A stretch of DNA of 64,000 bases, taken from the NCBI RefSeq assembly GCF_009498275.1, contig NZ_CP045643.1:3968001-4032000 (forward strand), given 5' to 3'. This document shows, piece after piece, positions 109-5,820 of this stretch (position 1 is the first letter of the stretch; the number at the start of each line of letters is the position of its first letter). This DNA comes from Streptomyces fagopyri (lineage in GTDB: Bacteria > Actinomycetota > Actinomycetes > Streptomycetales > Streptomycetaceae). The notes beneath the pieces are model-generated. The model worked only from the letters and a program-made list of their open reading frames with translations. It had not been told where the DNA came from and made no database searches. Both the position numbers and the translations under genes were made by a program.

Positions 109-202
109 TGTGGACAACACTCGCGGAAACTCGCCCGACCAATCCCACAAATCGGTCATATTTACTCCTAGTCTGACATTGCGCTCGTCCATCCTGTCCA
201 CA
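109..202. promoter_or_regulatory. Two DnaA-box-like sequences in an AT-richer leader
   Basis: TGTGGACAA at 109-117 is the complement of TTGTCCACA, the preferred Streptomyces DnaA box, and CTGTCCACA at 194-202 differs from it by one base. They face each other across an unusually AT-rich stretch (about 150-180) just upstream of the dehydrogenase-like gene. There are only two boxes and no dnaA or dnaN nearby, so this is not oriC. It could be a DnaA titration or regulatory site, or chance. Confidence 0.3.
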
Positions 203-252: not shown

Positions 253-1461
253 ATGCCCGCAGATCTCGCCGTCATCGGACTCGGTCATCTCGGCCTGCCC
301 CTGGCCCAGGCCGCCGTCGCCGCCGGCGTCTCCACACTCGGCTACAAGACCGGGCCGGAAGGCGGCTCACTCACCCCCGCCGAACTGCGCCGGATGCTCT
401 CGGGGGGCTTCCGGCCGACCACCGACGCGGCCGAACTCGGCCGTGTCCGCACCGCCGTCATCTGCGCCCCGACCCCACCGGGACCCGACGGCGCGCACGA
501 CCTGGCCCAGGTGGCCTCCGCCGCCCGCACCCTGGCCGCGCACCTGCGGCCGCACACCACGGTGATCCTGGAGTCGCCGGTGCACCCCGGGACCACGGAC
601 GACTTCCTGCTCCCCCTCCTCGAAGACGGCTCGGGGCTGCGCGCGGGACGCGACTTCCACCTCGCGTACTCGCCCAGCCGGGTCGACCCCGGCAACCGTG
701 ACTTCGGCCCGGCGAACACCCCCAAGATCATCGGCGGCCTCACTCCGGCCTGCACCGAGTCGGCCGCCGCCTTCTACGGCCGCCTCACGGACAAGGTCGT
801 CCGCGCGCGGGGACCACGCGAGGCGGAGACCGTGCAGCTTCTGGAGACCAACTACCGGCACGTGAACATCGCCCTGGTCAACGAGATGGCCGTGCTCTGC
901 CACGACCTGGGCGTCGACCTGTGGGACGTCATCCGCTGCGCCGAGACCAAGCCGTTCGGCTTCCAGGCGTTCCGGCCGGGCCCCGGCGTCGGCGGGCACG
1001 GCATCCCCCAGGACCTGACCGGCCGCGCGCCCCGCTCCCTGCGCATGGTCGAACTGGCCCAGCAGGTCAACAGCCACATGCCGCAGTACGTCATCCAGCG
1101 CGCCGCCGCCCTCCTCAACGAGCACGGCAAATCGGCCCGTGCCGCACGCGTGCTCCTGCTCGGGGTCACCTACAAGGCCGATCTCGCGGACCAACAGGGC
1201 ACGCCCGCCCACGAGATCGCCCTGCGCCTGATGGAACTCGGCGCGTCCGTCAGTTACCACGACCCGCTCGTCCCCGCCTGGAGCGTCCTCGGCCACCCCG
1301 TCCCCCGCGCCGACTCGCTCTACGAGGCCGCCGCCGACGCCGACCTCACGATCCTGCTCCAGCAGCACCGGACGTACGACCTCCAGGGCCTGTCCGTGAA
1401 GGCCCAGCTCCTCCTGGACACGCGCGGTGCGACTCCCACGGGGGCGGCGCACCGACTCTGA
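253..1461 (+). CDS. UDP-glucose/GDP-mannose dehydrogenase-family protein with substituted catalytic residues
   Basis: The 402-residue protein has the full architecture of nucleotide-sugar dehydrogenases: an N-terminal Rossmann fold with G9-x-G11-x-x-G14, a central helical domain and a C-terminal UDP-binding domain around LLLGVTYKADLADQQGTP. Active members oxidise UDP-sugars in two steps with a Thr, a Glu, a Lys, an Asn and a nucleophilic Cys. Here those positions read Pro109 (SPV for STV), Ser142 (SPSR for SPER), Gln195 and Thr199 (QLLET for KLLEN) and Gly250 (GGHGIPQD for GGHCIP.D). The fold is intact but the chemistry should be lost, so a binding or regulatory role is inferred. The start is an ATG with a GGAAGG ribosome-binding site about 13 bases upstream. 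No partner biosynthetic genes are visible. Confidence 0.85.
   Translation: MPADLAVIGLGHLGLPLAQAAVAAGVSTLGYKTGPEGGSLTPAELRRMLSGGFRPTTDAAELGRVRTAVICAPTPPGPDGAHDLAQVASAARTLAAHLRPHTTVILESPVHPGTTDDFLLPLLEDGSGLRAGRDFHLAYSPSRVDPGNRDFGPANTPKIIGGLTPACTESAAAFYGRLTDKVVRARGPREAETVQLLETNYRHVNIALVNEMAVLCHDLGVDLWDVIRCAETKPFGFQAFRPGPGVGGHGIPQDLTGRAPRSLRMVELAQQVNSHMPQYVIQRAAALLNEHGKSARAARVLLLGVTYKADLADQQGTPAHEIALRLMELGASVSYHDPLVPAWSVLGHPVPRADSLYEAAADADLTILLQQHRTYDLQGLSVKAQLLLDTRGATPTGAAHRL

Positions 1462-3792: not shown

Positions 3793-5820
<2,028 letters not shown>

Follow-up and report, generated by a model that had tools for sequence, protein, structure and literature searches.

Does a nucleotide-sugar dehydrogenase (NSDH) that has lost residues of its chemistry still have a task in the cell, and if so, which one? 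This question is raised by an open reading frame at positions 253-1461 (+) of the window, the whole stretch of 64,000 nucleotides of DNA analyzed here. The frame starts with ATG and encodes 402 amino acids plus a stop codon. AAGGA at 237-241, 11 bases ahead of the ATG, is likely its ribosome-binding site. An earlier note had read the product as a selected pseudoenzyme with an NSDH fold, in which every key catalytic residue was replaced while the cofactor and UDP-binding frameworks were kept. We have followed up this reading with comparisons of homologues, structure prediction and an analysis of the chromosomal surroundings.

Family membership and predicted fold

By sequence and fold family the protein is an NSDH. 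Its UDPG_MGDP_dh N-terminal, central and C-terminal domains scored 73.1, 74.1 and 53.3 bits in Pfam (cut-offs 27, 25.4 and 30 bits, respectively), and TIGR03026 gave 301.9 bits (cut-off 189.8). The closest solved sequences were Cap5O and other NDP-sugar dehydrogenases. Structure prediction, which the earlier note had suggested as a check, agreed with the proposed fold. An AlphaFold model built from 95 aligned rows, 52 of them from outside the clade of close relatives described below, reached a pLDDT of 93.3 and a pTM of 0.90, with a weak stretch at residues 251-260. The nine best PDB rows for this model were all NSDHs (TMq 0.72-0.90), including 4r16, CalS8 and Cap5O. The three-dimensional fold is thus that of an NSDH as predicted with the help of outside-clade rows; the clade-only alignment of 66 rows gave a poor model (pLDDT 61.9, residues 140-269 under 50).

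The nearest solved sequences and folds were those of Cap5O (3ojl) and of the P. horikoshii enzyme (4r16), UDP-ManNAc/UDP-GlcNAc 6-dehydrogenases that we take to be of the WecC/WbpA type. The 253-1461 protein has in common with them the three-domain fold, the GPGVGGH stretch and the equivalents of Asp254 and Lys308. Unlike them, it lacks the Thr, Glu, Lys, Asn and Cys of the active site as well as the NAD-ribose Asp, has two shortened stretches, and belongs to a clade with fixed residues of its own, Glu231 and Arg46-Arg47 among them. Human UDP-glucose dehydrogenase (UGDH; 2q3e, 3khu) has a like fold, with a TMq of 0.74-0.80 in the PDB rows listed, at 16-17% identity; the human enzyme, however, is active and its residue set intact.

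Loss of five catalytic residues

For the comparison, 240 clade proteins were taken as the best 120 of 7898 and the best 120 of 6223 matches of two homologue searches, each run on a candidate list of limited size, and 80 named genome loci (the best 80 of 534) and further genome loci were added to them. Removal of own-genome copies, paralogues and identical sequences left 383 proteins, 363 from the clade and 20 canonical ones, clade proteins being 388-426 amino acids long. Another 120 canonical relatives, the best matches to the canonical protein L169, brought the canonical set to 140. Both sets consist of best matches and are therefore biased to near relatives.

Substitutions were read after aligning the protein with three solved members of the family, Cap5O being one, and with the 140 canonical relatives. 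All five substitutions listed in the earlier note were found in their places, each codon lying on the forward strand: Pro109 (577-579) stands for Thr, Ser142 (676-678) for Glu, Gln195 (835-837) for Lys, Thr199 (847-849) for Asn and Gly250 (1000-1002) for the catalytic Cys. The replaced residues were each present in 140/140 canonical relatives and, among the 363 clade proteins, in 47 (Thr), 1 (Glu), 128 (Lys), 13 (Asn) and 6 (Cys). The last three correspond to Lys220, Asn224 and Cys276 of human UGDH, and we take positions 109 and 142 to be its Thr131 and Glu161.

The full Thr-Glu-Lys-Asn-Cys (TEKNC) set occurred in all 140 canonical relatives and in none of the 363 distinct clade proteins. No residue of the five was kept in 223 clade proteins, one in 96, two in 38, three in 1 and four in 5; the 253-1461 protein itself retains none. 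Chance or a sequencing error is ruled out by these counts. Two further NSDH-like genes of the same genome, L082 and L083, are 28-31% identical to the 253-1461 protein over the match and align with all five residues intact. They serve as an internal check on the alignment, so that chance and misalignment can be dismissed from this side as well. The homologue search found no closer homologue in the source genome.

The statement that every key catalytic residue was replaced went too far. Asp254 (1012-1014, +), by alignment Asp280 of human UGDH, which is predicted to activate the water, was kept in 359/363 clade proteins, and Lys308 of the UDP-binding domain (1174-1176, +) in 362/363. By alignment, the catalytic Cys and the Thr, Glu, Lys and Asn of an active NSDH are missing, and its water-activating Asp is present as Asp254. 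Conservation of the five substitutions among orthologues, which had been put forward as a check, was not observed either. The sites drift: position 250 is Ala in 137 clade proteins, Gly in 113, Ser in 87, Thr in 15, Cys in 6 and Asp in 5, and the five sites rank 344, 346, 336, 253 and 374 of 402 by entropy, where a high rank means variable. Conserved substitutions are hence ruled out as a signature of the clade.

Glu at position 142 was seen in a single clade protein, P0194, which reads TEKVD at the five sites. It is nested among Glu-less relatives in the tree, and its Glu is likely a reversion. This Glu and the retention of Lys195 in part of the clade were weighed against the explanation that we prefer below, as were the poor clade-only model and a dN/dS above that of most neighbours.

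In the partial text of PMC3184952, Cys276 of human UGDH carries the covalent intermediate and, in one form, turns toward Asn224. Lys220 stabilizes the anionic transition state, and Thr131 shifts as NAD is exchanged. The same text describes a C276A variant that still oxidizes the aldehyde intermediate. Loss of the Cys alone is therefore no proof of a dead enzyme, all the more as Asp254 is kept. Full oxidation is nevertheless very unlikely in the core group of the clade since Cys, Glu, Lys, most of the Asn and the NAD-ribose Asp are gone. That the 253-1461 protein is devoid of dehydrogenase activity is a judgement from its residues, which we hold with high confidence.

Selection and integrity of the gene

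The median dN/dS was 0.174 over 1500 pairs of more than 83% identity and 0.170 over 1200 pairs from 81 loci, in line with the purifying selection that the earlier note had asked orthologues to reveal. At the same 81 loci the neighbours gave 0.091 (glpD), 0.080 (guaB3), 0.084 (shbA) and 0.206 (guaB). Compared with glpD, guaB3 and shbA, the 253-1461 gene has a dN/dS about two times as high and is constrained about half as tightly. The value of guaB (3793-5301, -) lies above those of its neighbours, which is surprising for a housekeeping enzyme and may be an alignment effect.

Within the gene, pN/pS amounted to 0.46 at the five catalytic sites and to 0.21 at 394 other positions. At least 99% invariance in the clade was found for 139 of the 402 positions. 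In 20 canonical proteins, 77 positions were invariant. The clade had the same residue in at least 97% of its members at 52 of them; all five catalytic positions were among the other 25, for which the chance is about 0.003.

The gene was present as a clade-level match in 63/63 genomes of the same genus, and no internal stop was found within 108 clade-level matches (63 from the same genus and 45 from other genomes). In two genomes of the genus (G547 and G552) a stop lay inside the match to a canonical query; the genes fetched from them were open over residues 1-402. A single-genome error or a pseudogene is ruled out by the presence throughout the genus and by the stop-free matches. Intact orthologues with a gene broken only here, the case that would have spoken against the earlier note, were looked for among the 363 clade proteins and not found. 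The notion of a selected pseudoenzyme has thus withstood the comparison: with no intact orthologue, a single clade, purifying selection and an NSDH fold, the loss of residues is common to the orthologues compared, and the gene is retained under selection.

The NAD side and the UDP side

In Rossmann folds, an Asp at the end of strand 2 binds the NAD ribose. This Asp was present in 140/140 canonical relatives. The 253-1461 protein has Lys32 (346-348, +) in its place, as 204 of the 218 core sequences have Arg or Lys, and lacks the NAD-ribose Asp of an active NSDH. The stretch that follows is 11 residues shorter. The GxGxxG motif, on the other hand, was kept, with Gly9 in 362/363, Gly11 in 341/363 and Gly14 in 363/363 clade proteins. 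The claim that the cofactor and UDP-binding frameworks are kept consequently holds for GxGxxG, Lys308 and Arg391, but not for the strand-2 Asp and the stretch behind it.

Lys308, Asp254, Lys233, Arg264 and Arg391 were nearly invariant across the clade. Other positions set the clade apart. Glu231 (943-945, +) was Glu in 363/363 clade proteins and in 0/140 canonical ones, which have Lys, Arg, Ser, Ala or Gly. Gln315 (1195-1197, +) replaces an Arg found in 140/140 canonical relatives and in 9/363 clade proteins. Arg46-Arg47 are among the residues fixed in the clade, as is Arg228, which is also Arg in 22/140 canonical relatives. What has been retained is the UDP side (Lys308, Arg391), Asp254, Lys233 and a stretch at 228-248 with Arg228 and Glu231.

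Order of loss

When 70 rows, 50 from the clade and 20 canonical, were analyzed by maximum likelihood, the tree placed the clade in one group at 100/100 support. The first fork inside the clade has nine Wenjunlia-type rows on one side (98/95). We binned the 363 clade proteins by their identity to the 253-1461 protein. In the bin below 70% (n = 9), with Wenjunlia and S. capparidis among the named members, all nine proteins had Thr for Glu; six still had Cys, five Asn and seven Lys. No Cys was left in the bins of 70-76% (n = 51) and 76-83% (n = 85), where Asn had become Thr in 46 and 82 proteins and Lys195 was kept in 44/51 and 77/85, respectively. In the core bin of at least 83% (n = 218), Lys had changed to Gln in 208, Thr to Pro in 203 and Asp32 to Arg or Lys in 204 sequences; Arg or Lys at 32 was absent from the three bins below. 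Two stretches were shortened in the core, 31-46 from 27 residues in canonical proteins to 16 in 215/218 sequences, and 254-264 from 17-18 residues to 11 in 190/218. We read these bins as a stepwise decay, in which mainly Glu went first, then Cys and Asn, and last, in the core Streptomyces, Lys, Thr, the NAD-ribose Asp and the two loop stretches.

The nine Wenjunlia-type rows include a sister pair that differs at the catalytic position, with Cys in P0137 and Ser in P0198; Ser is also found in P0127 and L144. The catalytic Cys thus seems to have disappeared on more than one occasion. In L115 (the same place as L131), Cys and Glu are gone, but Lys195 is still there, as are the Asp that follows GY and the Rossmann stretch in its longer form; this intermediate would mark the time at which the NAD side was eroded. 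PDB entry 3KHU is titled as human Glu161Gln with a thiohemiacetal intermediate. Going by that title, the loss of Glu alone may already have stalled the catalytic cycle.

Chromosomal place

At 145/145 clade loci fetched, glpD adjoined the gene on the opposite strand. These loci, the clade members to which the statement on synteny applies, represent 142 distinct places (three were fetched twice), with some genomes possibly under two names. The gap between the glpD match and the match to the 253-1461 gene was 204-1077 bases (median 303). At 23 loci of other homologues, two places being fetched twice and some having a flank of only 1.5 kb, none of the seven neighbours tried was matched. Nor did 20 glpD loci from 17 genomes of other genera have an NSDH within 1.5 kb, with the source locus as positive control. 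Genus g14 yielded no clade-level match; of 15 genomes tried from it, 12 also lacked glpD at E <= 1e-100. Downstream follow guaB3, guaB and shbA, which in several lineages are 4-7 kb away. Viral contigs scanned with the protein gave 13 pattern matches and no relative, which rules out viral spread of the gene on the contigs scanned.

Further out lie Ser/Thr kinase genes which, by their order, resemble the SCO4775-4779 cluster of S. coelicolor and may be its equivalent. Presumably, again from gene order, SCO4773 is the S. coelicolor orthologue of the 253-1461 gene. As far as the partial text of PMC4416010 goes, the SCO4775-4779 cluster affects the spore envelope. We regard glpD and the kinase genes as neighbours, and the neighbourhood as a weak hint to function.

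Possible function and alternatives

We consider it probable that the protein is a retired NSDH kept for a non-catalytic job, most likely to bind a UDP-sugar and to pass its occupancy on to a partner. It retains the NSDH fold as well as the C-terminal, UDP-binding half, but the four-electron oxidation would very probably be impossible with Cys, Glu, Lys and Asn gone from the active site. The protein would then have been maintained in Streptomyces and sister genera for its non-catalytic job, in which the UDP-sugar would be bound and its occupancy signalled to the partner, perhaps in connection with cell-envelope supply. The retained UDP side, Asp254 and the fixed Arg228 and Glu231 fit a UDP-sugar that is held and used as a signal or for stability. 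Taken by itself, the judgement that the protein binds a UDP-sugar and acts as a regulator or scaffold is tentative and falls somewhat short of probable. A more elaborate version is rather unlikely as a whole: a sensor or adaptor for UDP-sugars, derived from an NSDH and dedicated to the cell envelope of Streptomyces. The stretch that in human UGDH crosses the dimer to the sugar of the partner, and near which Glu231 is fixed in the clade, would here report the supply of sugar nucleotides to a partner, the gene having its fixed place next to glpD and not far from kinase genes of the spore-wall type.

Alternatively, the enzyme may have been re-purposed for another reaction, such as a one-step redox, lyase or epimerase step, relying on Asp254, Glu231 and the arginines and perhaps on NADP(H). 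The clade-only Glu231, the near-invariant Asp254 and the Arg or Lys at 32 of the core sequences would be in line with this; such a replacement of the strand-2 Asp is known as an NADP-type change. However, site 250 in the middle of the pocket varies between Ala, Gly, Ser, Thr and Asp, hardly what one would expect of a working active site, and the Arg or Lys at 32 is confined to the core bin, where it accompanies the loss of 11 residues from the same stretch. We therefore regard a new reaction as unlikely.

Less likely still, the protein would be a subunit with no catalysis of its own, which joins an intact dehydrogenase of the cell in mixed oligomers and modulates that enzyme. Candidates for the partner exist with L082 and L083, and Arg260 of human UGDH crosses the dimer to contact the sugar of the partner subunit (PMC3184952, partial text). 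Yet the low identity of both paralogues argues against joint oligomers, and 47 of 91 same-genus genomes had one match only at E <= 1e-60, so that a close partner seems not to be required. The retained GxGxxG motif might suggest a redox sensor that binds NAD(H) or NADP(H) rather than a UDP-sugar, but the core group no longer has the ribose-binding Asp and is shortened behind strand 2, which makes this quite improbable. A relic under loss, as the drifting catalytic sites and deleted loop stretches might suggest, is barely credible, since a dN/dS of about 0.17 and 139 near-invariant positions speak against decay, as do the 108 stop-free matches, the presence in 63/63 same-genus genomes and the conserved upstream block described below.

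Relation to known pseudoenzymes and annotation

Our preferred reading of a retired NSDH with a non-catalytic job has parallels in trypanosomes, where the AdoMet decarboxylase prozyme and the deoxyhypusine synthase paralogue also represent a dead fold beside active relatives (PMC5201418 and PMC3663545, both in partial text). According to the same sources, the trypanosome proteins activate their active paralogue, whereas for the 253-1461 protein such a partner is hypothetical. The literature searched, which left out most subscription papers, held no mention of SCO4773 that we could find and no paper that brought together 'nucleotide sugar dehydrogenase' and 'pseudoenzyme'; among the papers listed by a further search (20 of 48) there was no mention of UDP-glucose dehydrogenase.

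The source names among the 240 clade matches listed were, where given, those of enzymes, e.g. nucleotide sugar dehydrogenase or UDP-N-acetyl-D-glucosamine dehydrogenase. This annotation is very probably wrong. The clade would represent a pseudo-dehydrogenase maintained under selection at a fixed chromosomal place and, most likely, misannotated. It also provides a natural record of enzyme retirement, in which living lineages show an early state, with mainly Glu lost, a middle and a late one. If UDP-sugar sensing were true, it would tie the supply of envelope precursors to growth or development in antibiotic-producing bacteria.

The upstream region

Between the divergent glpD and the 253-1461 gene, a block at 153-182, CGGTCATATTTACTCCTAGTCTGACATTGC, was conserved with an identity of 0.94-1.00 over 81 loci. 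Identity was 0.64-0.79 at 123-152, 0.80 at 183-192 and 0.89-0.98 at 193-252. The block was still recognizable in several more distant clade members. It may serve one or both of the two genes as a promoter or operator. A sigma-70 promoter scan of positions 1-2600, the block included, gave no match. A repeated regulon site is ruled out, as a 21-mer of the block had no second copy in the genome even when up to 3 mismatches were allowed.

Between the same two genes lies a perfect TTGTCCACA at 109-117 (-), presumably the DnaA-box consensus. It is the only one in the window, where 0.15 would be expected, and a copy with one mismatch was found at 194-202 (+).
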